A stretch of DNA of 64,000 nucleotides from Treponema primitia ZAS-2 (GTDB lineage Bacteria > Spirochaetota > Spirochaetia > Treponematales > Breznakiellaceae), in the NCBI RefSeq assembly GCF_000214375.1, contig NC_015578.1:3782001-3846000 (forward strand), given 5' to 3'. Each line of letters starts with the position of its first letter. The first letter of the stretch is position 1. Shown one piece after another: positions 1-45,350 of the stretch. The notes under the pieces were generated by a model that was given only the letters and a program-made list of their open reading frames with translations, was not told the origin of the DNA and did not search any database. Made by a program: the position numbers and the translations under genes.

Positions 1-648
1 GTCAGGGAAACTTCCCGCCGGGTCACCAGCCTGATCCACACCCAGGGGCTGGTTCCCGGAGTAAGCTGGGAAATAGGCGGTTCCACCGAGGAAATGCTTT
101 CCTCCTTCCGTTCCCTGATAATCGTTCTTGCTATCGCCATCTTCCTGGTATACGCAGTAATGGTGATACAGTTTGAACGATTCACCCAGCCGTTGTTGAT
201 CATGTCCTCTATTCCCTTCACCCTGATCGGCATCACCGGGGGACTCCTCCTCTTCGGTGGCACCCTCAATATTGTCTCCCTTTTGGGGATCATCACCCTG
301 GCGGGGGTGGTGGTTAATAACGCTATTGTGCTCATCGACTACACAAACATGCTCCGGGACCGCTATGGGATTTCTCTGGAGGAGGCGATCATGACCGGCG
401 CAAAATCCAGGTTGAAGCCCATACTGATGACCACCCTGACCACTCTGCTGGGGGTAATTCCCCTGTCCATAGGCCTTGGGGAAGGGTCGGAACTCTACGC
501 GCCCCTGGGGCAGAGTATCTTCGGCGGCCTTTTCAGCTCCACCTTCATCACCCTGTTTTTCATTCCCGTCCTCTACCTAATCATGGAAAAACGAAAAGAA
601 CGGAAAAAAGCTGCAAAAGGACAAGTGCTAAATTCTGTACAAAATTAG
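1..648 (+). CDS. RND efflux transporter (AcrB/HAE1 family), C-terminal fragment
   Basis: The reading frame is open from base 1, so this is the 3' part of a gene cut by the window edge; about 215 residues remain. The product carries the last transmembrane block of a resistance-nodulation-division pump. A run of hydrophobic helices includes the family-typical stretches around GITGGLLLFGG and NNAIVLIDYTN, then the conserved segment RLKPILMTTLTTLLG, and ends in a basic cytoplasmic tail (KRKERKKAAK). Such proteins export drugs, lipids or other compounds across the inner membrane with a membrane-fusion protein and an outer-membrane channel, using proton motive force. Substrate cannot be inferred. 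The gene converges on the next one, overlapping its stop by 4 bp, and is not part of the cobalamin operon. Confidence 0.9.
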   Translation, partial: VRETSRRVTSLIHTQGLVPGVSWEIGGSTEEMLSSFRSLIIVLAIAIFLVYAVMVIQFERFTQPLLIMSSIPFTLIGITGGLLLFGGTLNIVSLLGIITLAGVVVNNAIVLIDYTNMLRDRYGISLEEAIMTGAKSRLKPILMTTLTTLLGVIPLSIGLGEGSELYAPLGQSIFGGLFSSTFITLFFIPVLYLIMEKRKERKKAAKGQVLNSVQN

Positions 649-2615
649 GTATCACCTTCAAACCCGGTACGCAGCCCCAGCATAAGGGTAAATCCTTGTC
701 CGGGGTACCTATAATAGGATTCGTAGGAATAGTTAAGGGCATTGCGTAGGGTCAGAAAAGCGCTAAAGTTTCTGCTGATTTGTTGGCTGAGGTTCACGGT
801 AAGCAAAACATGGGGATCCAGTTTTTCGCCGTTGTCAGAGTCGCCGTACCGGAGACTTTCCACATGACCGGAAATTAGCAGGGACCCCTCTTTTTGCGGG
901 AGCGGACCGGGCCTGGAGGAACCAATTTTCCAGGGCAGCTCCAAAGAAATGCCCCCGGTGTGGACCGGTGTATAGGGCGCCCGTTTATCCGAAGCAAAAC
1001 CGTATCCTTCCCCCAGAAAATAGCTTAACTGATACCGGTAGGAAAGGGAGAAAACCAGCCTGTCAAAGAAGCTGTAGAGGGGAATATCAAAACCAATCCT
1101 GGTATCGGCGCCGAAAGACGCGGTTTCCCCTACATTCTGAGGAATGAGTATCGTTGATACAGCCGGATCGGGAAGCCAGTGAACAGTATCCTTATTCCAC
1201 TGGGCAAAAATGGCGTTATCAAAATTCAGCCATTCAGTGATGATCCAGAGCGTACCAAGGTCCCCGCCCCAGCCATCTTCAGGTTTAATGGCGCCGTTAC
1301 CCTTGGCGTCACCGCTCTCCCAACGGAGCTCCTGTATGTTGGGATACTTAAATATCCGGTAGTAATTGTTTCTGAAAGTAAGAAAATCGGCAGCATACCA
1401 GAAGATACCCAGTTTCGGTGCCGGCGCTATATAGAAGCCGCCGCCAGGATCGGAGCTAAGCATAGCCTTAATCGACGGGACAATGAGCAAGCTGTCATGA
1501 AGCCTGAATTCTCCGCCAAGAGAAAGACCGCCCTGGTGAAGTTCCTGAGAATTCTTAGCAGTAAGGGAGCTGTAATGATAGTCCCCACCAAACATAATAA
1601 GGGACCTTTCCCCGAAACGCCAGCTCCAGCGATTCAACACAGAGATTGTATATTCCTCCTGGTTATGAAAACCCGGTTCCCGATCATAATACAGGATCTG
1701 CCAACCGCTGTTTATTCCCAGTTCAAACCCTTTATCCCGATCCGGGGTAACAGGAATATTGAAGAGAAAATTATTCCTGAAGGAAAAATAATCCGGGTTT
1801 TCTTCCTTACTACCGTAGTAAAGGTCTCCAGCAACAATTATTTTGGCAGAGTCCGGTAAGTGCATGGTTAAGGCGGCGGATCCTCCCAAGTCCCAGAGAC
1901 CGCCTTTATCCTGCCGCCGGGTATACCCACCATCCCGGTAGAGAAAGTGATTGCCTGCCTGGTTAAAAAAAATGTCCGCTCCCAGAGAGAACCGTTCCAT
2001 GCCCACCCCCGCAGAAAAGACAGCGCCCTGGGTATCCAGCAGATCAATTAACTGGGGATTCTGTTCCTCACCATTATTGCGATAATAGCTTCCCGGCAGG
2101 GCGGCGGTATTCGAAACCTTTCCCTGAACCCGCCAACCTGATTCCTGCCCTTCACCGGTAATAAGATTGACAACCCCGCCTGAAGATCCCGGTATGTTGT
2201 ACAGGGTATCCGCGCCGCCGTAGTAAATCTCTATCCGGTCCACTGCGTTAAGGTCCATGTGTATCAGGGTCAATTCCCCGGGAAGCAGGAAATCTATGGG
2301 CATCCCATTTATCAGGAAAACGGCGCCCCGGGCATCAAAACCCCGAAGGCTTATATTTCCTGTATTGCCGTAGGGGCCGGAACTGATAACGTTTGCGTCA
2401 AGTGCTTCCTGCAAAAGGGTCGCTATATCCGGGGCATTATACTTTTCGATCTCTTCCCTGGTAATAATCCTCTTTAGAACAGCCCTTTCCGGCAGCTCCA
2501 CCCCCAGCTCATCTGCGGCAGAATAATCCGGCGGAAGCTCAGGGAAATTTACCGGCTGGGCGGAAAGTTCCGAAGGGAATAGCAGCACAAAAAGACAGAG
2601 TAATAAGGGAAGCAT
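645..2615 (-). CDS. TonB-dependent outer-membrane receptor, corrinoid-type (distal gene of operon 1)
   Basis: The 656-residue protein starts with a cleavable signal peptide (hydrophobic stretch to about residue 19, ending ELSAQ). A plug domain follows with the REEIEKYNAPDIATLLQEAL and LRGFDARGAVFLINGMP segments, then GSSGGVVNLIT, then a beta-barrel ending in an aromatic-rich strand. This is the architecture of BtuB/Cir receptors that import large nutrients with TonB energy. It is clearly paralogous to the receptor at 12074-14101 (shared GWGGDLG barrel motif and similar flanking strands), so one receptor opens and another closes the same operon. Location downstream of cobS and behind a cobalamin riboswitch makes a corrinoid the most likely ligand. 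No obvious TonB box is seen near the mature N-terminus, which is odd but not decisive. Confidence 0.85.
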   Translation of the reverse strand: MLPLLLCLFVLLFPSELSAQPVNFPELPPDYSAADELGVELPERAVLKRIITREEIEKYNAPDIATLLQEALDANVISSGPYGNTGNISLRGFDARGAVFLINGMPIDFLLPGELTLIHMDLNAVDRIEIYYGGADTLYNIPGSSGGVVNLITGEGQESGWRVQGKVSNTAALPGSYYRNNGEEQNPQLIDLLDTQGAVFSAGVGMERFSLGADIFFNQAGNHFLYRDGGYTRRQDKGGLWDLGGSAALTMHLPDSAKIIVAGDLYYGSKEENPDYFSFRNNFLFNIPVTPDRDKGFELGINSGWQILYYDREPGFHNQEEYTISVLNRWSWRFGERSLIMFGGDYHYSSLTAKNSQELHQGGLSLGGEFRLHDSLLIVPSIKAMLSSDPGGGFYIAPAPKLGIFWYAADFLTFRNNYYRIFKYPNIQELRWESGDAKGNGAIKPEDGWGGDLGTLWIITEWLNFDNAIFAQWNKDTVHWLPDPAVSTILIPQNVGETASFGADTRIGFDIPLYSFFDRLVFSLSYRYQLSYFLGEGYGFASDKRAPYTPVHTGGISLELPWKIGSSRPGPLPQKEGSLLISGHVESLRYGDSDNGEKLDPHVLLTVNLSQQISRNFSAFLTLRNALNYSYESYYRYPGQGFTLMLGLRTGFEGDT

Positions 2616-2646: not shown

Positions 2647-3495
2647 CTAGGCGGCAACGCTGAGAATGATATAGGCTACGCTAAGGTGGAGCAGTTCTCC
2701 GGTCTCAATTGCGGCGCCAAGTGCATCACCGGTATACCCTCCCAGGGACCGGTGGTAGACCCGGGCGTAAAACAGCGCAGCCAGGGGGCCGGACAGGCAC
2801 AGTGATATTGCCAGGAGGGGCATTATCGGTATAATTTCCTGGAAATTCCACGTGGGAAACGCCGGACCGCCAAGGACTTCAGCGCCAAAAACAAAGGTGC
2901 CCAGCTTAAAAAAGCCCCAGGCCAGGAGGCCCCAAATTATCAATGCGCTTAGAAAACCCAGGATCGCGCGGAAGGCCTTGGCATCCTTAGCCAGTGCGCC
3001 GAGGCCGCCAGGATTTGCCGGCTTCGCCAGACAGGGAATCAAGGCGCCGCCGAATCTGCCGCTTATGGGATAGGCCAGGAGCAGGACAGCGTATTGGTGG
3101 AAAAAGGGAAGCAGGGCGCTAAGCAGAGCAGCCTTAAGGGAAAGATCCGCAAACCCTGCAAAAAACCCATAGACCCCAACCCGGGAATCCTTCAGTATAG
3201 CCAGACGCTTTTCCCGATCAACCGTTCCCAGAAAAGCGTCAGCACTGTCCATAAGCCCGTCTAAATGAAAAAGATTAAAACAGAAATACTGCACTATAAG
3301 AACAATAATACTGATGACCAGGGGCTCGCTCATTATCAGAACAAGCCCCTGGGACACCAGAAAGACCAGCAAAGCCGGACATACGCCTATGACAGGAAGG
3401 TAGAAATCCATCCTGGAAGCATCAAAGGTAAAATGAATTTTAACCGGAATCCGCGAAACAAGACTGAATGTTGACAGAAACCGGTCTAAGATCAA
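2647..3495 (-). CDS. cobS: Adenosylcobinamide-GDP ribazoletransferase (cobalamin synthase)
   Basis: This 282-residue multi-pass membrane protein joins adenosylcobinamide-GDP with alpha-ribazole or its phosphate, the last assembly step of cobalamin. The diagnostic CobS features are visible: an N-terminal FSLVSRIPVK-like segment, the acidic metal-binding motif HLDGLMDSADAF at about residues 77-88, a following GVYGFFAG segment, and several hydrophobic helices to the C-terminus (GGYTGDALGA near residue 250). Length is normal for the family. The start overlaps the cobT stop by 4 bp, so the two are translationally coupled. It acts in the cytoplasmic membrane using the products of CobU and CobT encoded just upstream. 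Confidence 0.95.
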   Translation of the reverse strand: MILDRFLSTFSLVSRIPVKIHFTFDASRMDFYLPVIGVCPALLVFLVSQGLVLIMSEPLVISIIVLIVQYFCFNLFHLDGLMDSADAFLGTVDREKRLAILKDSRVGVYGFFAGFADLSLKAALLSALLPFFHQYAVLLLAYPISGRFGGALIPCLAKPANPGGLGALAKDAKAFRAILGFLSALIIWGLLAWGFFKLGTFVFGAEVLGGPAFPTWNFQEIIPIMPLLAISLCLSGPLAALFYARVYHRSLGGYTGDALGAAIETGELLHLSVAYIILSVAA

Positions 3496-4538
3496 TATTT
3501 TTCTTCCTTTGTTTCACCACCTGAAACATGGGCCTGGGAAAAGGAGGCCATCTCCCTCGCTGCCCGGACCCCCAGTTCAATGATGTGTCCGCCGATAACC
3601 GCACCGGTACCTTCTCCCAAGCGCATATCAAGGTTCACGATGGGATCAAGCCCCATACGATCCAGCACCGGCTTGTGTCCGACTACCTTGGAAAGGTGGC
3701 CCGCAAAAAGCCAGTCAGAAACCTTAGGGTTGATCATATAGGCCATATAGGCAGCGGAAGTAACCGGAAATCCGTCGATAACACAGGCAATGCCCTTACC
3801 CTCAAGTCCCAAAATAAGACCGGCCATCATGGCAAAATCAAAGGACCCAAGTTTTTGAAGAATGGCCTTCCCATTCTTGGGAGAATTCCGGAGTTTCACA
3901 CTTTCCTGGATGATATGCCGCTTATGTTCAAGCATCGTCTTATCGATGCCGGTTCCCCGGTCTACCATATCATCAATATTAAAGCCTGCAGCAACCAGCA
4001 TTGCTGCGGCAGTACTGGTGTTACTGATACCCAGGTCACCGATAGCAATTATATTCAAACCCCGATCTGCAGCATCCTGTGCCAGGACTTTCCCCTGAGC
4101 CAGGGCCTTTTCTGTTTCTTCCGGAGTAAGGGCATCCTCCTTAAAACTGTTCCGGCAGCCGTTGCCAACACGGGCCCGTACAAAGGTGCATCCCGGTTTT
4201 ACTTCCAGGTCCGGAGGAAATTCCTCCCCTATCACCCCTGCGTCAACCATGATGATTTCCCAGCCTGTACCCCCTGCCAGGGCGTTGATTCCTGCGCCGC
4301 CTGAAAGAATGTTCAGTACCATCTGCCGGGTAACCTCCTGGGGATACAGGGATACTCCTTCCGTAGCAATGCCGTGATCGCTGGCAAATACGTAAACCCC
4401 CTTTTTCTCAACCCTGGGAGGAACCTTCCCCTGTATTTCAGCCATTTTAATACAATAGCTTTCCAGCTTTCCCAGGCTTCCCCGGGGTTTGGTGAGATCA
4501 TCCAGATGGGCTTCCATCTTAATCCTGATGTTTTCCAT
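3492..4538 (-). CDS. cobT: Nicotinate-nucleotide-dimethylbenzimidazole phosphoribosyltransferase
   Basis: CobT activates the lower-ligand base by transferring phosphoribosyl from nicotinate mononucleotide, giving alpha-ribazole 5'-phosphate. The 348-residue length is standard. The family landmarks are LTKPRGSLGKLE near the N-terminus, FASDHGIATEGVSLYPQEVT at about residues 52-71, GGAGINALA, GDLGISNTSTAAA, and a C-terminal MRLGEGTGAVIGG loop. The glutamate of that loop is the known catalytic base in the family. A strong AAGGAGG ribosome-binding site precedes the ATG. It lies between the CbiR-like gene and cobS in operon 1. With CobU and CobS it completes the nucleotide-loop pathway for both salvage and de novo corrinoids. 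Confidence 0.95.
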   Translation of the reverse strand: MENIRIKMEAHLDDLTKPRGSLGKLESYCIKMAEIQGKVPPRVEKKGVYVFASDHGIATEGVSLYPQEVTRQMVLNILSGGAGINALAGGTGWEIIMVDAGVIGEEFPPDLEVKPGCTFVRARVGNGCRNSFKEDALTPEETEKALAQGKVLAQDAADRGLNIIAIGDLGISNTSTAAAMLVAAGFNIDDMVDRGTGIDKTMLEHKRHIIQESVKLRNSPKNGKAILQKLGSFDFAMMAGLILGLEGKGIACVIDGFPVTSAAYMAYMINPKVSDWLFAGHLSKVVGHKPVLDRMGLDPIVNLDMRLGEGTGAVIGGHIIELGVRAAREMASFSQAHVSGGETKEEKY

Positions 4539-4539: not shown

Positions 4540-5355
4540 TTATGCCTCCTTGCGGCTTTTAATTTGGTTATATTGTTTTATTGAGTTTATACCTGCCTCT
4601 GCTTCTTCCCAAGAAAAAAGTTCAGTATTGATAACCCCGCTAAACTGTGTGAGCAAGGGGTACAATTCCCGGAACCAGGGATCCTCCCCACGGACTGGCC
4701 GGTGATCCACAAGCCGCCCGTCAAGGGCGGCTTTCTCCCGATCAAGGCCGTGAAGATGTATCTCACCAATCCTGTCCCGGTGTTCTGCGAAAAAAGCTGC
4801 AGGGCTTTTCCCTTCCAGAAGGAGATGCCCCGTATCCATACAAATCCCCATATTCTCATCAAGATAGGGCAGCAGGGCATCAAATTTTCCCAGATGAGTG
4901 TTCTCTACCAGAAAGCGATGGGGTGCGGCTTTCGACGATCCCGATTCCGGTGGGTATTTCTTTGCCCAGCCCTTAACCAGGGATCCTAAGGCCGAGGCGT
5001 TTTCAGGATCCCCGGGGTGAACAATAAAATTCCGTACCAGGGGATTAAGCCGCCTCACCAGCTCTTCGTGTTCCGGTAAAACAGTATCCGGCAGGTGAGC
5101 TGTAAAAACAAAACGGTTCGTGAATTGCAGTATCCCTTCCCATTCGGCATCAAGCTGTTCCCTGATTTCATCATTGTACAAAAAAAACAGTAATTCTACA
5201 CCCCGTATTTCCTTCTTATCATCCAGAAAACCCAGATTTTCCAGGTAAGTACCGGGAATAACCCAGGATGGGACCGTAAGACAGCCTTGAGGGAATAAAA
5301 CTGCGTGGGAAACTGTGTTGCAAGCAGCGCTTTGTATTAAAGATTTATCCATCAT
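4540..5355 (-). CDS. cbiR: TIM-barrel phosphodiesterase, probable cobamide-remodelling enzyme CbiR
   Basis: The 271-residue protein has the sugar-phosphate isomerase/AP-endonuclease-2 TIM-barrel pattern. Candidate metal ligands are H87 in FTAHLPD, H113 in VHPGD, E151 in VENTHLG, D174/H177 in CMDTGHLL, H200/H202 in EIHLHG and E245 in NTELFSWEE. CbiR hydrolyses the phosphodiester of intact cobamides, releasing cobinamide phosphate so that a new lower ligand can be attached; it is typically encoded among cobU, cobT and cobS, exactly as here. The name is inferred from fold plus neighbours, not from a search; an unrelated xylose-isomerase-like enzyme remains possible. Residues 11-18 derive from a copy of the 24-bp dispersed repeat (5303-5326), so the extreme N-terminus is probably lineage-specific. 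Confidence 0.7.
   Translation of the reverse strand: MMDKSLIQSAACNTVSHAVLFPQGCLTVPSWVIPGTYLENLGFLDDKKEIRGVELLFFLYNDEIREQLDAEWEGILQFTNRFVFTAHLPDTVLPEHEELVRRLNPLVRNFIVHPGDPENASALGSLVKGWAKKYPPESGSSKAAPHRFLVENTHLGKFDALLPYLDENMGICMDTGHLLLEGKSPAAFFAEHRDRIGEIHLHGLDREKAALDGRLVDHRPVRGEDPWFRELYPLLTQFSGVINTELFSWEEAEAGINSIKQYNQIKSRKEA
5303..5326 (+). repeat. 24-bp dispersed coding repeat, single copy inside the cbiR-like gene
   Basis: The unit reads GCGTGGGA then AACTGTGTTGCAAGCA, about 19 of 24 identical to the consensus, preceded by T and followed by GCGC as in other copies. On the gene's strand it is read as ACNTVSHA, the same frame as the TCNGVPRA peptide in NrdG and ATCNEVIRA in CbiA. It sits at the very N-terminus, before the first barrel strand. 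Confidence 0.75.
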
Positions 5356-5882
5356 TTTACCCTCATGGGAATACCAGAAATCATGAACTCCACCCGATCC
5401 GCAGCAAAAGCAATCTTCCGGTTTGCCTCTGCCAGGAGCAGATTGTAGCGCCGGGTAGTTTCATCAAAAGGGACATTCCCCAATCCGGTTTCGTTGGTAA
5501 CCACAATACAATCTTTCATACCGCCAATAAAAAAATCCAAAATCCGGGAGAAATCATCCTCCCGCTTATAATACATAATATTGTTCACCCACATGGGCAG
5601 ACAGTCCACCACCGCCCGCTGTCCTGCACCGCTAATTACCCGGTCCAATTCCAGGGGCTCCTCAATGGTTATAAATCCCTGCGCACCCCCATTGACCCCG
5701 CCGATTACCGCCCGCTCCTCCTGATGTTTCTTTATGCGGAGTTTCATCTCGCCGTCCAGGGCTTCCGCAGTGGCGATAAAAGAAACCGGTGCCGCCGGAG
5801 AGACCCGCCACTCCTGTATCGCTATATCCAGGGCCCGCCGGGATTTGCCCGATTTAATTCCTCCGGTGATAAGAATGATCAT
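5352..5882 (-). CDS. cobU: Adenosylcobinamide kinase / adenosylcobinamide-phosphate guanylyltransferase
   Basis: This 176-residue bifunctional enzyme phosphorylates adenosylcobinamide and transfers GMP from GTP to give adenosylcobinamide-GDP, the CobS substrate. The N-terminal P-loop TGGIKSGKSRRA (residues 6-17) is the CobU-specific Walker A. It is followed by FIATAEALDGEMKLRIKKHQ, which carries the guanylylated histidine of the family, then VDCLPMWVNNIMY and VTNETGLGNVPFDETTRRY. All these blocks are hallmark CobU motifs and the length is right. The stop overlaps the cbiR-like start by 4 bp. Upstream lies the NifK-like gene, 13 bp away, so the nitrogenase-like pair and the nucleotide-loop genes appear to share one transcript. 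Confidence 0.95.
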   Translation of the reverse strand: MIILITGGIKSGKSRRALDIAIQEWRVSPAAPVSFIATAEALDGEMKLRIKKHQEERAVIGGVNGGAQGFITIEEPLELDRVISGAGQRAVVDCLPMWVNNIMYYKREDDFSRILDFFIGGMKDCIVVTNETGLGNVPFDETTRRYNLLLAEANRKIAFAADRVEFMISGIPMRVK

Positions 5883-5895: not shown

Positions 5896-7197
5896 CTAAT
5901 GTATTACATACCGCAGACCGTTCAAAATCTGTTCCAACAGAAAAAGTGCACCCTCACCGCCAAAAATGGACTTTTCGGTGATGTCCATGTATCCCAGGGA
6001 CGGCAGATAAATTTCTATACCGCAGAATTGCTGCCCATATAATTTTAATTCCGCAATAGTATTACCATCGGCCAGTAAAATATGTGTGGGTGCTTCTATA
6101 ATAGATTTTTGTAAAGTTTCCCCATAATGTATAACCTCAAGAAAGTCCTTCAGTTTTTGTGTGAAATGCGGGTCAGAATCAGGGAGAACCGAAACCGCCG
6201 CAGGGATCATCCCCAGGTAGCCGCAGAACCACCTGGTCAGGGTGTATGCAGTTGAAGCCTCAGCCTTTAGGGAGAATAGGGCCCCCTTGGGCAGCCCCAG
6301 GAGGGACGAGAACCGTGAAAGGTACAGGTATGCCCGGCCCCTGGCTTTATCAATGGTATCCAGAGCCTTTCCAGGATCAGTATCCAAGGCTTCACAGACC
6401 TGCCGCACAAAGCCGGCGGCGGCGTCAAACCCGATGGGGGGACCTTCCCCGGGACAGAGTGAAGGTATGCCGAAGCCGGTCCGTAGGTACTCTCCAATCT
6501 CCCCGCCGTATTCCGCATAAACCACCACGTTCAGGGCGGCTTCGGGGATGCACCGGATCGTTGCAGCGCTGTCCCCCCCGCCTGGGGCAGCTATCACCTC
6601 AATACCGCAGAGATCCAGCAGGCGTTTCAGGACCAGGTAATTTTGATCGTAGTATTTCTGATAGATACAAAGCCCAAGGAGATTCACCGCCTTTTTTTTA
6701 GGCTTCCCCGAAGCTTCCAGGCCGAGAACTTTTAATGCGCCTATGAGGGCATTTTGATACCCCGAAGCAAAGCTGCCGGAAAACCCTGTGTTCTCCACGG
6801 AAAAACAGGGGGTGTCCCGGACTTCCATCTCCAGAAAGCGCTCTAAATCGTCGCCGATAAGGGCCGCTCCGGGAGAATTGATCACAGCTATAAGGGCAAA
6901 GTTCTTTTTTACCGCTGATTTGAGCAGGTCCGCAATTTTAGTACCGCTGCCGAAAACATAATCATTCCCATCCAGGTATGTAGAGGGCACCCGGGACTGT
7001 CCGAAATAAAAACCCTCGGTATGTTCAAGGGGGTCATAAGTGGGGGTGCGGAAAAACTGGTTGTCGCTGATGGCGCTGTGATAGAATTTACACCCTGTAG
7101 GTCCGTTCAACACGGTACAGGCGTCCTTTATTCCCTCTATAGCAAATATGGCGCCGGAGAAGCTGTCAGGAGCAATATTTTCTGAATAGTAATTCAT
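5896..7197 (-). CDS. Nitrogenase component 1-like protein (NifK/BchB/NifN-type subunit), corrinoid-operon associated
   Basis: The 433-residue protein belongs to the oxidoreductase/nitrogenase component 1 superfamily. Evidence is the opening [22 protein letters not shown] (C27, C36), the helix-strand pattern, [10 protein letters not shown] (residues 114-123) and the diagnostic [18 protein letters not shown] (C131 to about 148). The usual third cysteine before IGDD (TCxxxxIGDD in NifK) is replaced by [12 protein letters not shown], so a full P-cluster seems unlikely. This resembles the simpler [4Fe-4S] subunits of protochlorophyllide or F430-type reductases more than true nitrogenase. It overlaps the 3' end of the NifH-NifD fusion by 32 bp with a GGAGG site in the overlap, indicating coupling and a complex. 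No nif cofactor-assembly genes are present. Substrate is unknown; a corrinoid or other tetrapyrrole is a reasonable guess from context only. Confidence 0.85.
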
Positions 7198-9367
7198 CCT
7201 GCCTCCAGCCTTCCTTCAAATTCATCCTGAATATTTCCGCCCAACGTCTTGCCAACAGAATTCCACTCAGAAACCCTGCAGTCGGACTCAGTGGTATGGT
7301 ATCAGTCAGGATGGACTGATCCTGATCATTTGAGCTGTAGTTCGTAATCAGCAGGTCCGGCATAATTCGGGCAACATCAGCCTTCCGCCGGGTGTTTTCA
7401 TAGGAGATATGCAGTTCAAGAATATGATCTTTGAAATTTGTAGTAAAATGATTGTCCTGAGAAAAATTCAGAATCCCCACAAAGACGACATTCATTCCCA
7501 GATCGACCGCAGTCTGTAATATCCAGTCAATATCCTGATTATAGGTGACCACCATCAGCCGTCTACCTTCTAATTGGGGCCTAATCTGTTCAAGCTCGTC
7601 CTGGTATTGTTTCTGATAATCTAGGGTGATAGATTCAATAAGGTCTCTGCTTTTATGAAAATACTCACCAACACTGCGGACCCAGTCACAGCTTTCCCTG
7701 AAACCTATGGGGAAGGGCTTGTCCAGGAATTCCGCGCCAAATTCCGTTTCAAGAAAAGTCCTGATGGTTCTGCCCATATAATCCCCGTAGGCCAAAATAT
7801 TAAGCCGCCCCCGTTTAAACCGGCTGATTTCTTCTACCGTGGTTTCACAGATAAAGTGACAATTCACCCGGATGCCGAAGCGGTCCAGAATGTCCTTCAC
7901 ATACCTGAAGCTTGCATCCCTGGCGTTGGTTTCCGACTTTTCAGCAACAATATTAACCGTGTCATCCTCAGCTTCAAATTCCCGGTCGATAAGCCTCCGG
8001 GCGGTTTCCATGTATGCCATCAGTATACCCTGGAGATAATCTCCCTGAAGGTTGCCATCGGTAAGTAATGGGATAATCTTTATAGCATCATCCTCCAGGT
8101 CCCGGACAAAGCGGATGTCATCACCGATAATCCCGCTGGGACAGCTTGTGAGGACAAAGATAACCCCTGGCTTGCGCGGGGAACTTCGTTGCAAGTAGCG
8201 TGTCTTGGCCTCAATGACTTTTTCCCGCAGTTCTTCTATACCGCCGAAGATCATAACCCCTTCGTTCATTTCCGAAGAAACCACCGGCGGGGAAGAACCG
8301 TAGGGGAGGATTATTCCCCGTTCCAGGATAAAGCGCCGGGGAACAGAGGTGATGCTTTGGTAGGTAATATGGGAGCAGCTTCTGGGACCATGGGCGATAC
8401 TAACGCTGTCATCCACCTGGGTGGTGATGCTCATGGCGCCGCTAAAGGCGCAGCCATGGAGGGGTTCATGTGACACAAGGCTCTTGGAAAAGAAGGCTGG
8501 CTTTTTTGCTGCCCTGTCAATATCCTGAGGCAGCTCTTTCCGCACCCCGGCAGCGGGGGCTTTTTTGCCGAGGATCCGTTCTTCCAGGTTCTCGTCAGAA
8601 AGGGGCTTGGCAGAATAGAGCTCGCTCTGGGAATAAACCTGATCCGCTAGGAAAGAAAACTGTTCCCCCAGCTCCGAGTCCGGGAATGCCTCCACCAGGC
8701 ACATACCTGCTTTTTCACTGTCTGAAAAGAGATCGCTCCTTGGGAACTGGGCAATAAGGGGGAGCCCCACGGCATCACAGAAACGCTTAACCCGGTCTTC
8801 CTCTTCCGCTAGACCCCGGGAATTGAAAATTATGCCCCCGGCGCGGCCCTTCTTCAAATCATAATTATTCAGCCCCCGCAGAATATTATTGGCGGCATAA
8901 ATTGACATAAATTCACCGGAAGTAACGATATACACTTTTTCTGCATAGTCCCGGCGTATGGGCACCGCAAAACCGCCACAGACCACATCCCCCAGAACAT
9001 CGTAGAGTATCCCGTCGTAGTTATTATCTTTAATACCCAGCCGTTCCAGAAGTTCAAAGGTGGTCAGTATACCCCGGCCCGCGCAGCCTACCCCCGGCTC
9101 CGGCCCTCCCGCTTCTACACAGTGAACCCCGAAGGCGCCCAGGTGAACCACGTCGGAAAGGCAACACTGATCCGGAGTTTTCCCCTTGAGGTAATCCAGT
9201 ACCGTAGTGATCCGCTCCCCATGAAGCAGAAACCTGGTAGAATCGTGCTTGGGATCGCAGCCTATCTGTAAAATACGCTTCCCCTGCCGGCCAAGAACCG
9301 CAGAAATATTCGCGGAGATAGTTGATTTGCCGATTCCGCCCTTTCCGTATACTGCAATCTCAGGCAT
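7166..9367 (-). CDS. Fused NifH-like reductase and NifD-like catalytic subunit
   Basis: This 733-residue polypeptide joins two proteins that are separate in known nitrogenase-family systems. Residues 1 to about 250 are an Fe protein: P-loop [10 protein letters not shown] (7-16), CDPKHDST (37-44), the two cluster cysteines C95 in GVGCAGRG and C130 in [13 protein letters not shown] linker of roughly 50 residues follows. Residues from about 300 form a component-1 subunit with three cysteines in P-cluster-like positions: C306 (HGCAFSGA), C331 (HGPRSC) and C409 ([12 protein letters not shown]). ATP-driven electron transfer to a substrate bound between this part and the NifK-like partner is expected from the family. 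Residues 391-398 (YLQRSSPR) come from a dispersed 24-bp repeat. Position between a corrinoid ABC transporter and CobU, behind a B12 riboswitch, suggests a role with cobamides or their metal. Confidence 0.9.
8174..8197 (+). repeat. 24-bp dispersed coding repeat, single copy inside the NifH-NifD fusion gene
   Basis: An exact consensus copy: GCGC plus the 20-bp core GGGGAACTTCGTTGCAAGTA, preceded by T and followed by GCGT. The gene on the other strand reads it as YLQRSSPR, in the component-1 domain between the second and third cluster cysteines, where a surface loop is expected. Other genes read the same DNA in different frames. Confidence 0.9.
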
Positions 9368-10169
9368 GTTTAACTTCCTGTTGATCCATGTCGCATTCTT
9401 TGTGTTCCCCGGTACTCCGCCAATTTTCCAAGGATTCCAGCATAAAGCTGCGGATATCCATATCGTAAATGGAATTGAGGGTTTCCCCGTCCAGAACCTG
9501 GTTCGGTTTGCCGTAGGAAACCAGAGTGCCCTTGTGGATAATAGCGGCGTTATCGCCGTAATAATGGACCATGTTCAAATCATGTAAAACACCAACAACA
9601 GTTTTATTATTATCCTTGGCCCAGGTGATGATATATTGCAGTAACTCTATCTGATGTTTCAGATCCAGGTGGTTGGTTGGTTCATCCAACAGGATGATTT
9701 CCGGATTCTGCGCCAGGGTCCGTGCCAGGAACACCCGCTGTAATTGCCCCCCGGATAATTCATTTATCATCCGATCCTTTTCACTGTAGAGTCCCAGCCT
9801 GTTAAGTATATCCGCAATAATATCCCTATCCTCAGAAGACAGGCTTTTAAGAAACCCCTCAGTGTGGGCATAACGTCCCAGGGAAACCGTATCATAAACG
9901 CTGTAGGGAAAATATATCTCCGACATCTGGCCCATGAGGGCAATTTTTTTCGCAAGCTCTTTTCGGCTGAAGGATGACAGATCCCGGCCATCTATGACCA
10001 CCTTTCCACGATAGGGAAGGATACGGGCTACAGACTTGAGGAGGGTACTCTTACCGCAGCCGTTAGGTCCCAGGATACAGAGAAATTCTCCCTTCTCCGC
10101 CTTCAGATTAATATTGTGGATAACATCAAGGCCATCATACCCGCTGCTTAAATTTTTTATTTCCAACAT
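9360..10169 (-). CDS. ABC transporter ATP-binding protein, FecE/BtuD family (operon 1)
   Basis: This 269-residue cytoplasmic ATPase carries Walker [11 protein letters not shown] (residues 33-42), a Q-loop around [13 protein letters not shown], the signature [17 protein letters not shown], Walker [13 protein letters not shown] and the switch histidine in VLHDLNM. This is the iron-chelate/vitamin B12 importer class. A C-terminal tail rich in acidic and histidine residues extends beyond the normal end. It follows the permease gene by 9 bp and overlaps the NifH-NifD fusion by 8 bp, so transporter and reductase are co-translated. It energises uptake of the ligand bound by the lipoprotein at 11179-12105. 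Corrinoid is the favoured substrate because of the riboswitch and the cob genes; an iron or cobalt chelate cannot be excluded. Confidence 0.92.
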
Positions 10170-10178: not shown

Positions 10179-11192
10179 CTACTTCTTTTTAAAGTATACC
10201 CATGCAAAGAATGGCGCACCTATCAATGCGGTTATAGCCCCCACAGGAAGTTCCGAGGGAGACACAATGGTCCGGGCTATAAGATCGGTTACCACCATCA
10301 GGCTTCCACCAAGAATAAAAGACATGGGTATCACATACCGGTGATTGGACCCCACAATTTTTCGTGCCATGTGAGGCGCGATAAGATCCACAAAACCGAT
10401 AACACCGCTTAATGAAACCGCCGCCCCGGAAAGGATGGTTGAAAAAACAAACAGCCGCCTCCGCACCTTTTCTGTTTCCACGCCGACGGATTTTGCCTGC
10501 TCCTCTCCAAATGTAAGAATATCCATTTCCCTGGTGTACCGCAGTATCCCCAGGGTTCCAATAACAAAAAAGGGAAGCATCAATCTAACATAGGACCAGC
10601 CCTTGAGGGCAAAGCTCCCCATTTGCCAGTATATCAGATTCCGGAGTTCTTCCCGAAACAGGGCGAGCAGGGTGGTAAGCAAGGCGCCGATAAAGAGGGT
10701 AAACACCATACCAAAGAGAATGATTGTGTTATTCGACATGGTCCTGTCTAACTTTGAGGAAAGGGAAATGACGATATACACTGTTAACAAGCCGAAAAGA
10801 AACCCCGTAAGGGGCAGGGTAAATCCGCCAATCAGAGGGATCGTAAACCCCGTAAGCATGATCAGCGCCGCCCCCAGGGTCGCCCCCGAAGAGACCCCCA
10901 AAATATAGGGAGAGGCGATCTGGTTTTTCAGAACCGACTGAATCACGGCGCCGCCCATGGCAAGGGAACCGCCTATGATAAAGGCTAACAATACTCGGGG
11001 CAGCCTGAGGGTCCATACGATAGACACATCCCGCATCTCAATACCTTCCGTGAGGTGTATGGAAAATATTTTTTCAACAATAATCCTCAGGGTATCATAT
11101 ATAGAGATATAGGTACTCCCGACAGAGGCCCCAATGCATACTATCACTGCTGCAATTATGACACCGATAAGGATCTTCTTAGAACTTTTCAT
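10179..11192 (-). CDS. ABC transporter permease, FecCD/BtuC family (operon 1)
   Basis: A 337-residue integral membrane protein of the BtuC/FecCD type with about ten hydrophobic segments. Typical family landmarks are RLPRVLLAFIIGGSLAMGGAVIQSVLKNQIASPYILGVSSGA (first third, with the conserved RLPR and NPLA-like region), SLSGVIGFVDLIAPHMAR, which couples to the ATPase, and the terminal SPSELPVGAITALIGAPFF block. It forms the homodimeric channel that moves a corrinoid or metal chelate across the inner membrane. The 5' end overlaps the binding-protein gene by 14 bp and the ATPase follows 9 bp downstream, giving a complete three-gene importer in natural order. Confidence 0.93.
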   Translation of the reverse strand: MKSSKKILIGVIIAAVIVCIGASVGSTYISIYDTLRIIVEKIFSIHLTEGIEMRDVSIVWTLRLPRVLLAFIIGGSLAMGGAVIQSVLKNQIASPYILGVSSGATLGAALIMLTGFTIPLIGGFTLPLTGFLFGLLTVYIVISLSSKLDRTMSNNTIILFGMVFTLFIGALLTTLLALFREELRNLIYWQMGSFALKGWSYVRLMLPFFVIGTLGILRYTREMDILTFGEEQAKSVGVETEKVRRRLFVFSTILSGAAVSLSGVIGFVDLIAPHMARKIVGSNHRYVIPMSFILGGSLMVVTDLIARTIVSPSELPVGAITALIGAPFFAWVYFKKK

Positions 11193-12105
11193 ATTTATCC
11201 GGATAAACCGCCTTTGCCATCTGCCGCAAGGCCAGGACTATGCGGGCCGAAGGCCGGGCTGCCGAATTGGTATCCACCAAATAAATAGCATTGTTTTTTA
11301 CCGCATTGATATATTCAAATCCTTCCCTGTTTTTTATTTCCCCAACGGGATTGTATCTCTCCTGGATGTTAGTGATTATGACATCCGGATTTCTCTCCAG
11401 AATAGACTCAGCGCCGGGGAAGATAACACCAATCTGATCGGAAAATATATTTACAGTTCCAATGATGGTCATCATCTCATGCAAATAGGTATTCCGCCCT
11501 ATGGTTACCAGCTCCGGCGCCGGGGATATTTCGAAATACGCCGTCTTTTTGTCCTCGATTGTATTTCCTATAGCAGCTATTTCATCAATCTGGCTTTTAA
11601 AGGATCGTACCAATTCCTTGCCCCGATCCGGCACATTCATCAAATCGGCGATAAATTCTATGTCCCCGCATATACCATCAATATCACTGCTCAAGGGTAT
11701 ATACACCACTGAAATACCTGCTTCCCGGATCAACTTAAAAGGGTCATCCCCTGCTCCGATTTTATTATGACCGTTAGAAATTATCACATCCGGATTGAGG
11801 CCGATTATAACCTCCGCATCGGGGAAGAAAAAATCTATCAAGGGCAGGTCCTGGTTAACCCCTCTTACACCCAGAGAGTATTTGTCTATGGCGGTCAGTT
11901 TATCTGCAAGTCCCAGATCAACTAATATCTCTGTACTGGATGGAGCAGTGGAAATAACTTTATTGACGGGACCGGATATTGCCACGGAGTTCCCGCCCCG
12001 GTCGGTTACAAGCCGTGCATTATTCCCGCCGCATCCGGCTAATAACAAGGCTGCCGCAAACAAGGCAGAAAACTTATTCACTTTTTTTCTCCTTGCCGGG
12101 TTCAA
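11179..12105 (-). CDS. Periplasmic binding lipoprotein, BtuF/FecB-type (operon 1)
   Basis: The 308-residue product starts with a short basic N-terminus, a hydrophobic stretch and a lipobox LLAGC (Cys about residue 25), so it should be a lipid-anchored binding protein. The mature part has the two-lobed helical-backbone pattern of the BtuF/TroA class: VISTAPSSTEILVDLGLADKLTAID, the segment around EVIIGLNPDVIISNGHNKIG, and a C-terminal lobe with PDVIITNIQERYNP and NAIYLVDTN. It overlaps both the upstream TonB receptor (32 bp) and the downstream permease (14 bp). Its job is to pass the ligand delivered by the outer-membrane receptor to the BtuC-like channel. Substrate by context is a corrinoid. 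Confidence 0.9.
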   Translation of the reverse strand: MNPARRKKVNKFSALFAAALLLAGCGGNNARLVTDRGGNSVAISGPVNKVISTAPSSTEILVDLGLADKLTAIDKYSLGVRGVNQDLPLIDFFFPDAEVIIGLNPDVIISNGHNKIGAGDDPFKLIREAGISVVYIPLSSDIDGICGDIEFIADLMNVPDRGKELVRSFKSQIDEIAAIGNTIEDKKTAYFEISPAPELVTIGRNTYLHEMMTIIGTVNIFSDQIGVIFPGAESILERNPDVIITNIQERYNPVGEIKNREGFEYINAVKNNAIYLVDTNSAARPSARIVLALRQMAKAVYPDKYEKF

Positions 12106-14101
12106 TGTTTATCCGCATACCTATGGTTGCGGTAAACCCGGGCACGGGATATGATTCTTTGGATTCATAGAATGTATTGAGCAGATTCCGAAGCGCTAAA
12201 AAAGATGACAAATAATTATTAATTTTTTGATTCACATTAATATTGAGAAGAAAATAAGGGTCCATGGGAGCACTATTATCTCTATCAGAATACCGCAAAG
12301 CCTCATAATGCCCCGAAAGCTGAAGGGAGCCGGTTTTCCATGTAAACTCCAGAGATGCGCCGACAGTGTGCATGGGCATATAGGGGATACGTTTATCCGA
12401 AGCCCAGGTAAAGCCATAACTAAGCAGGTAACTTAAAAGATATTGATAGGAAAGGGAGATTCCAACGGTTTGAAAAACACCCTTGGATAGCGGCATCACA
12501 TATTTTACCCTGGTGTCGTTACCAAAATACATCGCCTCCCCTACATTTTCGGGTCTCCAGGTAGTGCCCACAAAAGGAGCCCAGTGAATTGAGTCCTCTG
12601 TCCATTGGGTATACATCGTAGTTTCGATATTCAAAAACTCTTTATAGGCGTACAGGACCCCCAAATCCCCCCCCCAGCCGTCTTCGGGTTTAAGGTCCGG
12701 ATTACCGTTCATACCCCCGCCGGACCAATAGAGATCCTGAAAATCAGGCTGCTTAAAGCTGCGGAAATAATTGTTTTTCAATCTGAGCGAATCGCTTATA
12801 TTCCAAAGAAGACCAAGCTTTGGAACTGCTACAGCGGGCATACTGGTTTGGGGGCCGCTAAAAACACCCTTGACCGAGGGTATTATGAGAAATTGCTCAA
12901 GGGGCTGAAATTCAGCGGTAAGGTAGATTCCGCCGTCATGCCGGTCATGAAAATTAAACTCCGTTGAATTAAGGAAAGCATACTGGTAATCCGCTCCCAT
13001 CATCAGGGTAAGTTTTTCACCGGGATACCAGGTCCAGCGGTTTATCCCCATAATAAGATGTTCATCATGCAGTGAAGAAGATGATCCATCAATAGAAGGT
13101 GCATAATCTAAAGTTTTCCAGCTATGGGAGAGGGACGCCTCAGTTGCAAAATTGTCATGAAAAACCCGGGGCATATCAAGCAGGAGCTTCTGCCGGGTTG
13201 AAAAATCCGTCTGCTTGCCGATTAAATCGCTTGAAGAACCCACACCGGATTTGGGAATATTTTTATCCCCATAGTATATATCGCCGGATGCAATAATTGT
13301 TGAATAGTCAGGCAAATTCCGGCTATACGATAGTCCGCCGCCAGTATCAAAAACTTCATTGCCTTCCTTCCGGCGGACCGTATCGAAATTTTCATCCTTA
13401 AAGAGAAAATGATTCGCTGCCCGGTTCGTAAATATATTGGCAGTAACAGAGTACTTTTCCGCCCCATAGGAACCAAAAAGGGAGTAATTCTGCGAGTCCA
13501 GAAGGTCCTCATAATGAGGCTTTTCCACATTGCCATCCTGCTTCCGGTATTTTCCGGGCATGGCTGACGTGTTCGATATACTACCCCCCAGCCGTAAACC
13601 TGGTTTTTCCTTCTTCACTGTAATAATATTGATAACCCCGCCAAGGGCACCTGAAACATTGTATTTAGAATCTGAGCCCCCATAGATAACTTCAATCTTG
13701 TCTATGGAAGAGGGATCTATCTGGCTTAAATCAAAGCCGCCGGCTACGAGAGAATTAGCGGGAACCCCGTCAATGAGAAAAGCAATGCGATTGGAATCAA
13801 AACCCCTCATATTGATATTCGTCTGGTTCCCGTAAGCACCATAACTGGTTATCCCCATATCCAAGGTTTCCTGAAGCAGGGTTGCAAGATCATGGGTATT
13901 CTGTTTCTCAATTTCTTCTTTGCTGATTACCCTCATGTGCTGGGTAGTCTCGGTGCTTTCCGTTACGGTAATACCCTCCCCTTCCATAAAGAGGGTATCA
14001 TCCCATTCCTCTTCCTGAGAAAAAACCGAGCCGGGGATGCTTAAAAAGAGAATCCAGGCCGAAAGTATCCTTCCGACCCGGAGAAAACGTCCCTTCATCA
14101 T
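12074..14101 (-). CDS. TonB-dependent outer-membrane receptor, corrinoid-type (operon 1, proximal)
   Basis: A 675-residue receptor with signal peptide (hydrophobic to about residue 28, ending SVFSQ), a TonB-box-like GITVTEST, a plug domain with EEIEKQNTHDLATLLQETLD, MRGFDSNRIAFLIDGVPANS and GALGGVINIIT, and a 22-strand-type barrel ending in aromatic strands. It is a diverged paralogue of the operon's last gene. The C-terminal end extends past a typical final aromatic residue with a charged tail (PGKEKKSE), which may reflect the overlap with the binding-protein gene. The gene lies 27 bp downstream of the riboswitch-proximal lipoprotein. It should bind and import the corrinoid handled by the adjacent ABC transporter. 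Confidence 0.88.
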   Translation of the reverse strand: MMKGRFLRVGRILSAWILFLSIPGSVFSQEEEWDDTLFMEGEGITVTESTETTQHMRVISKEEIEKQNTHDLATLLQETLDMGITSYGAYGNQTNINMRGFDSNRIAFLIDGVPANSLVAGGFDLSQIDPSSIDKIEVIYGGSDSKYNVSGALGGVINIITVKKEKPGLRLGGSISNTSAMPGKYRKQDGNVEKPHYEDLLDSQNYSLFGSYGAEKYSVTANIFTNRAANHFLFKDENFDTVRRKEGNEVFDTGGGLSYSRNLPDYSTIIASGDIYYGDKNIPKSGVGSSSDLIGKQTDFSTRQKLLLDMPRVFHDNFATEASLSHSWKTLDYAPSIDGSSSSLHDEHLIMGINRWTWYPGEKLTLMMGADYQYAFLNSTEFNFHDRHDGGIYLTAEFQPLEQFLIIPSVKGVFSGPQTSMPAVAVPKLGLLWNISDSLRLKNNYFRSFKQPDFQDLYWSGGGMNGNPDLKPEDGWGGDLGVLYAYKEFLNIETTMYTQWTEDSIHWAPFVGTTWRPENVGEAMYFGNDTRVKYVMPLSKGVFQTVGISLSYQYLLSYLLSYGFTWASDKRIPYMPMHTVGASLEFTWKTGSLQLSGHYEALRYSDRDNSAPMDPYFLLNINVNQKINNYLSSFLALRNLLNTFYESKESYPVPGFTATIGMRINIEPGKEKKSE

Positions 14102-14128
14102 ATTAGTTGAAAGTTTTTATAAAGCCCA

Positions 14129-14686
14129 TTACTGCCTGCTCAGGGGAGCAGCCTGCAATGCTGATGCACCTCCGTACCGTTCAGCATTTACAGGGCTGAA
14201 TTTTAGTATGGCTTCTTCCAGTGTTATTACTTCCACATGATCGTTGTCAGGGTACTTATCGGAAGTAGCGACATCGTATGCGCTTCCCATTATTACTGAG
14301 CCTGATTCCAGCTTACGATAATAAACAGCCTGATAGGAGCCAGGGGCGGTATAAGCTGTAATTGATTTTGGATTATCATATTTAACAATAATAGCTCCTG
14401 CGGCTAAACTAAAATTGTAAACATATACAATATTAGCGGAAAACCCCAATCCATATCCCCCATCGTTATAAATGAGCCTGGTATTGCTTATTTCATAACC
14501 ATCATAGACGTTGGCCCAGGAACCAATAAGTCCCGGGTTGAGCTGGTGACCATCCTCAAATTCTTCACCATCCATATCGCACCCAGTCAGGGATAGTGCC
14601 CCCGCAACAAGGCCCAGCACGAGAAACAGGAAAATCGCCCGCCCGAAAGCGCGGGTTTTCCCAACCGAAAAATTGTGTGTAAACAT
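14129..14686 (-). CDS. Unknown lipoprotein, first gene of the riboswitch-controlled operon
   Basis: Start chosen at 14686 because an AAGGAG site precedes that ATG; a longer open frame runs back into the riboswitch and is not credible. The 185-residue product has a basic N-terminus, one hydrophobic segment and a lipobox LTGC, then an acidic linker DMDGEEFEDG. The mature domain contains GLIGSWANVYDGYEIS, NDGGYGLGFSANIVYV and SYQAVYYRKL, a lipocalin-like or beta-barrel pattern I recall from treponemal surface proteins with no assigned role. Being the gene closest to the B12 riboswitch and next to a TonB receptor, it could be a surface corrinoid-binding accessory comparable in role, not in sequence, to BtuG/BtuH of Bacteroidetes. 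That role is inference only. Confidence 0.75.
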   Translation of the reverse strand: MFTHNFSVGKTRAFGRAIFLFLVLGLVAGALSLTGCDMDGEEFEDGHQLNPGLIGSWANVYDGYEISNTRLIYNDGGYGLGFSANIVYVYNFSLAAGAIIVKYDNPKSITAYTAPGSYQAVYYRKLESGSVIMGSAYDVATSDKYPDNDHVEVITLEEAILKFSPVNAERYGGASALQAAPLSRQ

Positions 14687-14754
14687 GGCTCTCTCCTTTC
14701 CGAAGAAAAGGAGCCCGGGAACAGGAACGGACCTTAATCCGCAGTTCCCCGTGG

Positions 14755-14784
14755 AAAAAATGCCGATTAAATTTCGGATTTTTT
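14755..14784 (-). terminator. Possible intrinsic terminator of the riboswitch expression platform
   Basis: On the minus strand a short CCGA/TCGG stem with an AATTTAA loop is flanked by an A-run and followed by CATTTTTT. It lies between the riboswitch aptamer and the lipoprotein start, where an attenuator would be expected. The stem is short, so confidence is limited. An imperfect hairpin around 14792-14811 (AGGCT...AGCCT) just upstream could be the competing antiterminator. Confidence 0.5.
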
Positions 14785-14867
14785 CTCTAGGCTCTATCCT
14801 CGAAGCCTGAAAAAATTTGTTTGGCCCCCGCGTTGTCCTCCCGCGGAAAGCCTGGTCCCTAAAGGGG

Positions 14868-15083
14868 CCTACGCATACCAAAGTCTCCTGGCTTCCGGGT
14901 TTTCAGTCGGAACTGAACCAATTCTGCCGGCCTTCCCAGCCAGAATCACCTGTTGGAACAGGGATCCTTTAGCCAGTGGCCGTAAACGGCGGAATCGGCG
15001 AACATCAAGGCATTCTGGGCCTTAATGTTGAAATTCGGTTACAGTTACGGGACAGCGGAGGATTTTCACCTCGCTTCCTCTGA
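14868..15083 (-). promoter_or_regulatory. Cobalamin riboswitch controlling operon 1
   Basis: Read on the minus strand the element has every classical block in order: AGGTGAAAATCCTC, CGCTGTCCCGTAACTGTAA, the B12-box region GGCCACTGG, GGGAAGGCC, and the 3' signature AAGCCAGGAGAC. Length and spacing match the common adenosylcobalamin/cobalamin class. It lies just downstream of a sigma-70 promoter and upstream of the lipoprotein gene, so cobalamin should shut off the whole transporter, nitrogenase-like and cobUTS operon. The stretch 14687-15134 holds only this element, its platform and its promoter. Confidence 0.93.
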
Positions 15084-15097
15084 AATATGCACTTTTA

Positions 15098-15126
15098 AGT
15101 ATATAGGTGATTTGGGACGCCGTCAA
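15098..15126 (-). promoter_or_regulatory. Sigma-70 promoter of operon 1
   Basis: On the minus strand TTGACG (15121-15126) and TATACT (15098-15103) are separated by exactly 17 bp. Transcription would start near 15091, a few bases before the riboswitch. The -35 box lies only about 10 bp outside the stop codon of the upstream cobyric acid synthase gene. Confidence 0.8.
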
Positions 15127-15134
15127 GTAAAATT

Positions 15135-19205: not shown

Positions 19206-19708
19206 TAATATTCAATTCCTTCCCGGGCTTTCACGCCCAGATCGTAGGGGTGTTTTATCTTCCGGATCTCCGAAACATAATCCGCCGCCTCCACCAGATG
19301 AGGGGGCGGGTCCCGGCCGGTAAGAACCAATTCGGGCTTTTCCCCTGTTTTAAAAACCAGATCGTCTATCAGCTCCCGATCCAGGGCGCCCAGGTTATAG
19401 GCGGACAAAACTTCGTCCATGACCAGGAGATCACAGGGCAGGGCCAGGGCTTCTTTAAGGTTACTGTTATTATCATCGGTCATTTCTGTGCGGGTATCTT
19501 CGACCAGGTTCCGAAAAAAACCGTAATCCTTCTTGTTCCGCAGTACCGTGATATTCGGAACAAATTTCAGGCTGTGAATCTCCCCGGTATCCCGGCCTTT
19601 CATGAATTGCAGTATTACTACGCGCTTTCCGCTTCCGGCTGCCCTCAGGGCAAGTCCCAGGGCGGCGGTTGTTTTTCCCTTACCGTCGCCGGTATAAATA
19701 TGGATCAT
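19205..19708 (-). CDS. cobA: Corrinoid adenosyltransferase, CobA/BtuR type
   Basis: This 167-residue P-loop enzyme transfers the 5'-deoxyadenosyl group of ATP to Co(I) corrinoids. Family evidence: IYTGDGKGKTTAALGLALRAAG at residues 4-25 (the CobA P-loop), VVILQFMKGRDTGE, PCDLLVMDEVLSAYNLGAL and a terminal VSEIRKIKHPYDLGVKAREGIEY. Length is slightly under that of the Salmonella enzyme because the N-terminal helix is missing, a common variation. It overlaps cbiP upstream by 4 bp and shares its last base with the next gene's start. The adenosylated product feeds CbiP and the nucleotide-loop enzymes. Confidence 0.95.
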   Translation of the reverse strand: MIHIYTGDGKGKTTAALGLALRAAGSGKRVVILQFMKGRDTGEIHSLKFVPNITVLRNKKDYGFFRNLVEDTRTEMTDDNNSNLKEALALPCDLLVMDEVLSAYNLGALDRELIDDLVFKTGEKPELVLTGRDPPPHLVEAADYVSEIRKIKHPYDLGVKAREGIEY

Positions 19709-32810: not shown

Positions 32811-32882
32811 TAAGGAAAAAGGTGCAAGAACCGGAAAACGGCTTTTACCCTAACGTCCTTCCTTCGAGGGTTCAGGTAATAA

Positions 32883-32974
32883 GCACAAGGACCGTCTCCC
32901 GGCTTCCGGCTCGTTAGTCCGGTTACGATGGCGGGACCGCTACGGATTCTCACCGTATTCCGATATCCCTGTGC
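32883..32974 (-). promoter_or_regulatory. Short cobalamin riboswitch controlling operon 2 (btuB to cobQ)
   Basis: Minus-strand blocks in order: GCACAGGG, GGTGAGAATCCGTAGC, GGTCCCGCCATCGTAACCGG, and AAGCCGGGAGACGGTCC, closed by CCTTGTGC which pairs with the first block as P1. These are the core segments of the cobalamin class, but the usual GCCACTG reads GCCATCG and the peripheral domain between core and 3' signature is much reduced compared with the operon 1 element. Its ligand is expected to be a cobalamin form. Confidence 0.85.
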
Positions 32975-32981
32975 GGGAATT

Positions 32982-33094: not shown

Positions 33095-33097
33095 AGA

Positions 33098-45028: not shown

Positions 45029-45107
45029 ATGACTGTAAACCACAATCCTGGGTATTATAACAAATTAGCCCCAAAAAAGACAAGTCATGCCTTTTAAACA
45101 AACCCTA

Positions 45108-45345: not shown

Positions 45346-45350
45346 GGTTT

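Follow-up and report, generated by a model that had tools for sequence, protein, structure and literature searches.

What does a nitrogenase-like reductase do in the middle of a cobalamin (vitamin B12) operon? The substrates established for nitrogenase and its relatives are N2, precursors of chlorophyll and of F430, and methylthio compounds; we know of no member that reduces a corrinoid. The question is raised by two genes of Treponema primitia ZAS-2, located in a 64,000-nt stretch of DNA (contig NC_015578.1, positions 3,782,001 to 3,846,000 of the forward strand; hereafter the window), in which an iron (Fe)-protein domain of the NifH type and a catalytic domain of the NifD type are joined in one chain, followed by a NifK-like partner. 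Our comparative analysis points to an ATP-driven corrinoid reductase that would function in uptake and salvage, a reading to which we assign a probability of about 0.8. The enzyme is most likely a reductase of salvaged corrinoids, since its genes occur repeatedly among those for B12 uptake and repair, and under B12 riboswitches. The two genes are:

7166..9367, minus strand: fused NifH-NifD-like reductase, 733 aa (open reading frame (ORF) call and Pfam)
5896..7197, minus strand: NifK-like partner, 433 aa, with a single conserved cysteine, C36 (ORF call and Pfam)

The 733-aa chain consists of a NifH-like part (H, residues 1-265), a flexible linker (about 269-303) and a NifD-like part (D, 306-712). 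Pfam detects Fer4_NifH at residues 3-263 (2.6e-92) and Oxidored_nitro at 306-712 (2.8e-66), as well as Oxidored_nitro at residues 13-428 (8e-45) of the NifK-like chain (K), whose ORF overlaps the fused one by 32 nt. These domains, together with a Walker A motif and two cluster cysteines, place the system in the nitrogenase superfamily. Cysteines C95 and C130 of the H domain and C306, C331 and C409 of the D domain are invariant in the 33 relatives aligned, as is C36 of K in 23. Because one of the patterns used in our genome scan itself included Cys306, the D-domain cysteines were re-checked in relatives found by homology only, and all three were present in each of the eight. The ORFs agree exactly with the initial annotation, which had described the fused chain, its C95, C130 and three D-domain cysteines, and the overlapping NifK-like gene.

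Structure models of the single chains predict that both domains fold well, with a disordered segment at 269-303 (predicted local distance difference test, pLDDT, under 50); across the fusion family the linker region varies from 36 to 116 residues. Foldseek gave BchB as the top match of the K model (template modelling score 0.77-0.79), by a small margin, as nitrogenase chains score nearly equally. An (HD)2K2 particle would hold one Fe-protein pair per two D/K sites: with one H domain per D there would be a single such pair, compared with two in nitrogenase, and therefore the two D/K sites may be served in turn, or H domains may be shared between particles.

The cluster ligands separate this family from the cofactor-bearing enzymes. 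Equivalents of NifD Cys62, Cys88 and Cys154 are present in all aligned D domains, while K retains only the equivalent of NifK Cys95, Cys70 being mostly replaced by Asp and Cys153 mostly by Pro. In the alignment, the fused D domain has no counterpart of Cys275 or His442, the NifD ligands of the iron-molybdenum cofactor (FeMoco); a nitrogenase, which this and the retention of four of six P-cluster cysteines speak against, is rejected on the trees as well. Methylthio-alkane reductase (MAR; MarHDK/Nfl) belongs to the same superfamily, and its complex is the closest sequence match of K in the PDB. However, MAR builds its P-cluster from six cysteines and carries an [Fe8S9C] cofactor, whereas the fusion family has four cysteines, of which K contributes one of the three P-cluster positions, and no cofactor ligands; MAR was rejected on these ligands and on the trees.

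The closest parallel is offered by the chlorophyll enzymes protochlorophyllide reductase (DPOR, BchLNB) and chlorophyllide reductase (COR, BchXYZ), in which an ATP-driven NifH-type donor likewise serves a D/K-type pair devoid of FeMoco ligands. The second cluster of COR is a [4Fe-4S] cluster, with a ligand pattern that we read as three cysteines and one, as in the D and K chains of the fusion family. At the level of sequence, the fused proteins match the DPOR/COR-type [4Fe-4S] ligand set, three residues in N/Y and one in B/Z. In contrast to the fusion, the Bch systems have a separate H subunit and lie among chlorophyll genes, while the fusion has B12 genes, a B12 riboswitch and its own place in the trees. 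The F430 enzyme CfbCD is similar in that CfbC is the top NCBIfam model for the H domain and a metal tetrapyrrole is its substrate; it differs in having separate subunits with a single D-type protein, and the score of 321 bits, below the cut-off of 402, together with the tree placement, sets the fusion apart from it. Outside the superfamily, RamA and the O-demethylase activating enzyme (AE) also spend ATP to make Co(I) corrinoids, but these unrelated proteins act on corrinoid proteins rather than on free corrinoids.

The fusion family has a single origin. In a component-1 tree of 85 sequences (quick method), the D domains of all 23 fusions group together (Shimodaira-Hasegawa-like approximate likelihood ratio test, SH-aLRT, 100), as do their 23 K partners, and neither clade lies within the Nif, Nfl, Bch or Cfb references, which were the groups included. 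A more careful H tree likewise united the 23 fused H domains (support 93/89). This pattern is as expected from a single fusion event, after which D, K and H were inherited together. The fused clades do not include CfbC and CfbD of Methanococcoides, and D, K and H stand apart from BchNB/BchYZ, although the exact position of Bch is unsure; the nearest sister of the fused clades is unsettled, because the Bch and Cfb branches are long. The phylogeny that the initial annotation had proposed as a check accordingly leaves all three parts outside the groups of known substrate.

How unusual is such a fusion? A NifD-domain alignment scan of 84,980 species recovered 59 fusion loci, in practically all of which NifH and NifD share one frame and NifK follows. 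They are distributed over Bacillota, Actinomycetota, Desulfobacterota, Chloroflexi, Planctomycetes, Spirochaetota and methanogens, and the cultured holders include Clostridium tetanomorphum, Sporobacter termitidis, Desulfocicer vacuolatum and Methanococcoides vulcani. The scan demanded one of two short motifs, so that divergent or unfused members may be missing; metagenome contigs are short. Evenly drawn samples, which take in the centre genome and a few already known holders, gave 5 of 398 genomes in Bacillota, 3 of 297 in Desulfobacterota (about 1% in both) and 7 of 197 among relatives of Methanococcoides. In Spirochaetota only 2 of 393 sampled genomes carry the family, the other matches at the threshold being distant (26-28% identical). 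A local oddity or an assembly error is rejected by the dozens of genomes carrying the fusion.

The family combines a one-chain H and D, a NifK gene following it and membership of a single clade, and the supposition that the known relatives all have separate subunits does not stand. Dos Santos et al. 2012 mentioned fused nifH-nifE-like genes in one sentence ('data not shown'), with no function or corrinoid link (PMC3464626), and in 2014 a 'fused nifH/nifE' was tabulated for Ca. M. intestinalis (PMC4153887). The fusions of 2012 very probably represent the present family. What is new is the link of the fusion to B12 riboswitches and corrinoid salvage, the fusion itself having been noticed before; no functional study of it, nor any riboswitch link, was found in the open-licence literature.

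It is this genomic setting that points to the substrate. At the T. primitia locus, twelve genes on the minus strand, from a lipoprotein gene (14881) to a second TonB-dependent receptor gene (645), are separated by gaps of -32 to +31 nt and headed by a cobalamin riboswitch. Besides the fusion and its partner, the run contains:

14865..15124, minus strand: cobalamin riboswitch at the operon head (RF00174, 47 bits, full model)
14129..14881, minus strand: small putative lipoprotein, first gene past the riboswitch, start uncertain (ORF call)
12074..14101, minus strand: TonB-dependent receptor (top NCBIfam match TonB-B12, below cut-off)
11179..12105, minus strand: BtuF-type binding protein (Pfam/NCBIfam search)
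10179..11192, minus strand: BtuC-type FecCD permease (top NCBIfam match vitamin B12 permease BtuC, below cut-off)
9360..10169, minus strand: BtuD/FecE-type ABC ATPase (Pfam/NCBIfam search)
5352..5882, minus strand: CobU (sequence and position; conserved in loci L045, L060 and L061)
4540..5355, minus strand: CbiR cobamide-remodelling phosphodiesterase (NF041277, 112 bits, cut-off 105)
3492..4538, minus strand: CobT (recognised from sequence)
2647..3495, minus strand: CobS (recognised from sequence)
645..2615, minus strand: second TonB-dependent receptor, possibly the operon's last gene (ORF call and Pfam)

Here and below, the names CobU, CobT, CobS, CbiJ, PduO and those of energy-coupling factor (ECF) transporter parts come from sequence reading and pairwise similarity, with no curated model. 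The same operon is carried by a second termite-gut Treponema genome, and a similar lipoprotein gene occupies the equivalent position in L045. A corrinoid-type ABC transporter and cobU-cbiR-cobT-cobS as neighbours, under control of a cobalamin riboswitch, had been predicted, and are borne out by the same-strand run, the CbiR score above the NCBIfam cut-off and the RF00174 match. Equally correct was the statement that nif assembly genes are missing at the locus: nifHDKEN lies near 1.30 Mb instead.

Riboswitch control recurs in other holders. Among the 37 fusion loci with whole genomes, the fetched DNA contains 27 RF00174 matches, where the density in these genomes as a whole (323 in 126.7 Mb) predicts 1.8, an approximately 15-fold enrichment, and 12 of these loci have at least one such riboswitch (1.8 expected; P about 5e-8). 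In L069, L086 and L100 the riboswitch immediately precedes the fusion gene, at distances of 269, 166 and about 140 nt, respectively; in L062, L103, L115 and L116 it heads the gene run to which the fusion belongs. The surroundings of other nitrogenase-like clusters, sampled at nine loci (145 kb) that come mostly from the same genomes, contained no cobalamin riboswitch; this control and the genome densities reject an association with B12 genes by chance.

The neighbouring genes tell the same story in several phyla. BtuFCD, CobU, CbiR, CobT and CobS in termite-gut Treponema correspond to BtuC, CobU, CobT, CobS and DUF71 in a planctomycete, and to the order CbiZ-BtuFCD-fusion-NifK-CbiK in methanogens, one of which also has CobN. 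In Marinisporobacter, DUF71 (Pfam Diphthami_syn_2) stands immediately ahead of the fusion; a B12-salvage role has been predicted for this family because 75 of 102 members adjoin B12 transporter genes (PMC3541065). CobO is present at L069 and PduO adjoins L094, while many Bacillota have near the fusion proteins with DUF4430, a domain of the transcobalamin C-terminus (PMC4350170). Corrinoid context is also found at four of the eight homology-only loci, i.e. three methanogens (CbiZ-BtuFCD) and one Bacillota locus with ECF-type transporter genes and a DUF4430 protein. In total, a riboswitch or a marker gene is present in the DNA around the fusion at 28 of the 59 scan loci (22 of 52 when Treponema is excluded); at L064, a short contig not counted among the 28, only a BtuD-type ATPase remains. 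A survey that placed the fusion usually far from corrinoid genes was to have told against the initial annotation; the result lies in between, with riboswitches or salvage genes at about half of the loci, far above chance. Of the substrates proposed there, a corrinoid gained support from this survey, and a tetrapyrrole or a metal complex became less likely than a corrinoid.

What, then, might the enzyme do? Several features together suggest reduction of an imported corrinoid: the chain has an Fe-protein domain, a second [4Fe-4S] site is predicted, the cofactor cavity would be empty, expression should respond to B12, and the genes lie amid import and salvage functions. The ATP-driven reductase proposed at the outset is supported. 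In such a cycle, a ferredoxin or flavodoxin would reduce a [4Fe-4S] cluster held by C95 and C130 of two NifH domains, ATP binding would dock the NifH pair onto a D/K pair, and electrons would pass to a second [4Fe-4S] cluster with C306, C331 and C409 of D and C36 of K as ligands. From there they would be transferred directly to a corrinoid in the cavity equivalent to the FeMoco pocket of nitrogenase; an imported Co(III) or Co(II) corrinoid would be brought to Co(I), adenosylated and handed on to CobU, CbiZ or CbiR. We infer the clusters, the docking cycle and the corrinoid substrate, and Co(I) as the actual product is the weakest step of the scheme.

Co(I) formation for the adenosylation of imported corrinoids is nevertheless the likeliest single reaction, at slightly less than even odds. 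Adenosylation requires Co(I). The substrate of CobU and archaeal CbiZ is adenosylated cobinamide (PMC3541065), and other anaerobes spend ATP to overcome the barrier set by the Co(II)/Co(I) potential, which is near -530 mV in a corrinoid protein (PMC6739815); it is for these reasons that we prefer this reaction.

Several observations weigh against a corrinoid reductase forming Co(I). About half of the loci have no corrinoid gene or switch within reach (many of them are short contigs or bicistronic, with uninformative neighbours), and zinc-type ABC genes adjoin L072 and L075, as branched-chain transporter genes do L092 and L095. Cobalamin riboswitches are entirely absent from the Methanococcoides genome, and the corrinoid link of bacterial DUF4430 proteins is one that we infer. 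Furthermore, the characterised [4Fe-4S]-type tetrapyrrole relatives reduce ring double bonds and not the metal, and Co(I) for adenosylation is usually supplied by flavoproteins without ATP.

The chemistry of these relatives makes reduction of a corrin-ring C=C bond the foremost competitor: DPOR, COR and CfbCD all reduce such bonds in their own tetrapyrroles, and the reaction could serve the repair, conversion or breakdown of unusable or oxidised corrinoids, or release cobalt that neighbouring chelatases would re-insert, in agreement with CbiK and CobN in methanogen operons. However, the Treponema operon has no chelatase, the adjoining salvage enzymes use intact corrin rings, and we know of no natural ring-reduced corrinoid; we consider this reaction unlikely and favour Co(I) formation over it. 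A different imported substrate (a siderophore, haem, F430 or a metal complex), with corrinoid genes adjacent only through shared import, would be compatible with the many chelates carried by FecCD-type importers, with the metal transporter adjoining L072 and L075, and with the occurrence of other nitrogenase-like sets beside FecCD importers. It is improbable in view of the B12 riboswitches immediately preceding the fusion and of the corrinoid-specific neighbours CbiZ, CbiR, CobU, CobT and PduO in unrelated phyla. Removal of the upper ligand (decyanation or dealkylation) from imported corrinoids, yielding Co(I) or Co(II) as a by-product, shares the genomic context of Co(I) formation and would target corrinoids in the form in which they first appear inside the cell, but the known enzymes depend on flavin or glutathione and use no ATP, which makes it very improbable. 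Substitution for a missing de novo step such as the CbiJ ring reduction, chemically close to protochlorophyllide reductase, is hardly credible in this genome and was rejected, as the window encodes what looks like a full anaerobic cbi run at 19705-30117, which includes a CbiJ-like gene (25912-26658), identified by sequence.

We consider it somewhat better than an even chance that the fusion represents an additional type of tetrapyrrole reductase within the nitrogenase superfamily, one that is self-contained, each catalytic chain having its own Fe protein, and that would be the first to use a corrinoid as substrate. If a corrinoid reductase is correct, the nitrogenase superfamily would be linked to B12 metabolism, anaerobes would gain an ATP-driven reactivation of scavenged B12, and a natural fusion of Fe protein and catalytic chain would become available for studying ATP-gated electron transfer. 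B12 riboswitches and cultured holders make the corrinoid prediction testable now.

Other features of the window and of the fusion loci may be recorded. At 33086-33165 (plus strand, AdoCbl-II) and 32873-33002 (minus strand, Cobalamin) the window has two divergent, back-to-back B12 riboswitches, flanked by a TonB receptor operon on one side and a CbiK-like gene on the other. Mutually similar TIM-barrel proteins are encoded beside CbiZ or BtuC genes in L108 (4514-5563) and L100 (15410-16540); they have the AP_endonuc_2 fold, like CbiR, with no NCBIfam CbiR match, and possibly form a second CbiR-like family. In the methanogen loci L195 and L196, DUF1638-like genes, identified by eye, adjoin the fusion.

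A PF00148 search of the T. primitia genome yielded ten proteins, the pair studied here and the nifDKEN set near 1.30 Mb included. Further pairs occur at 626-629 kb, with their own NifH, and at 29-32 kb, behind sulfate-assimilation genes. At the latter site a second fusion at 28.5 kb ('open frame 771') was rejected, the DNA revealing a separate NifH of 297 aa. These NifHDK-like genes (L042 8487-12160; 28.5-32.2 kb) end a sulfate/sulfonate assimilation run with an ABC importer and CysH, CysD and CysN types, and their D subunit is not that of a canonical MAR, since the Cys62 and Cys154 equivalents are missing. NifHDK-like sets in which H and D are separate, their NifH sharing about 50% identity with that of the fusion, are present in L043 (7411-10895), L047 and L050, followed in the last two by FecCD/BtuF-type importer genes. 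Finally, L166 of Sporobacter termitidis (45001-64000) contains a different nitrogenase-like set without the fusion (12742-15865), accompanied by FecCD-type importers and MoeA-like genes, amid three molybdenum/tungsten (molybdenum cofactor, Moco) riboswitches, and this group is apparently linked to Mo/W.
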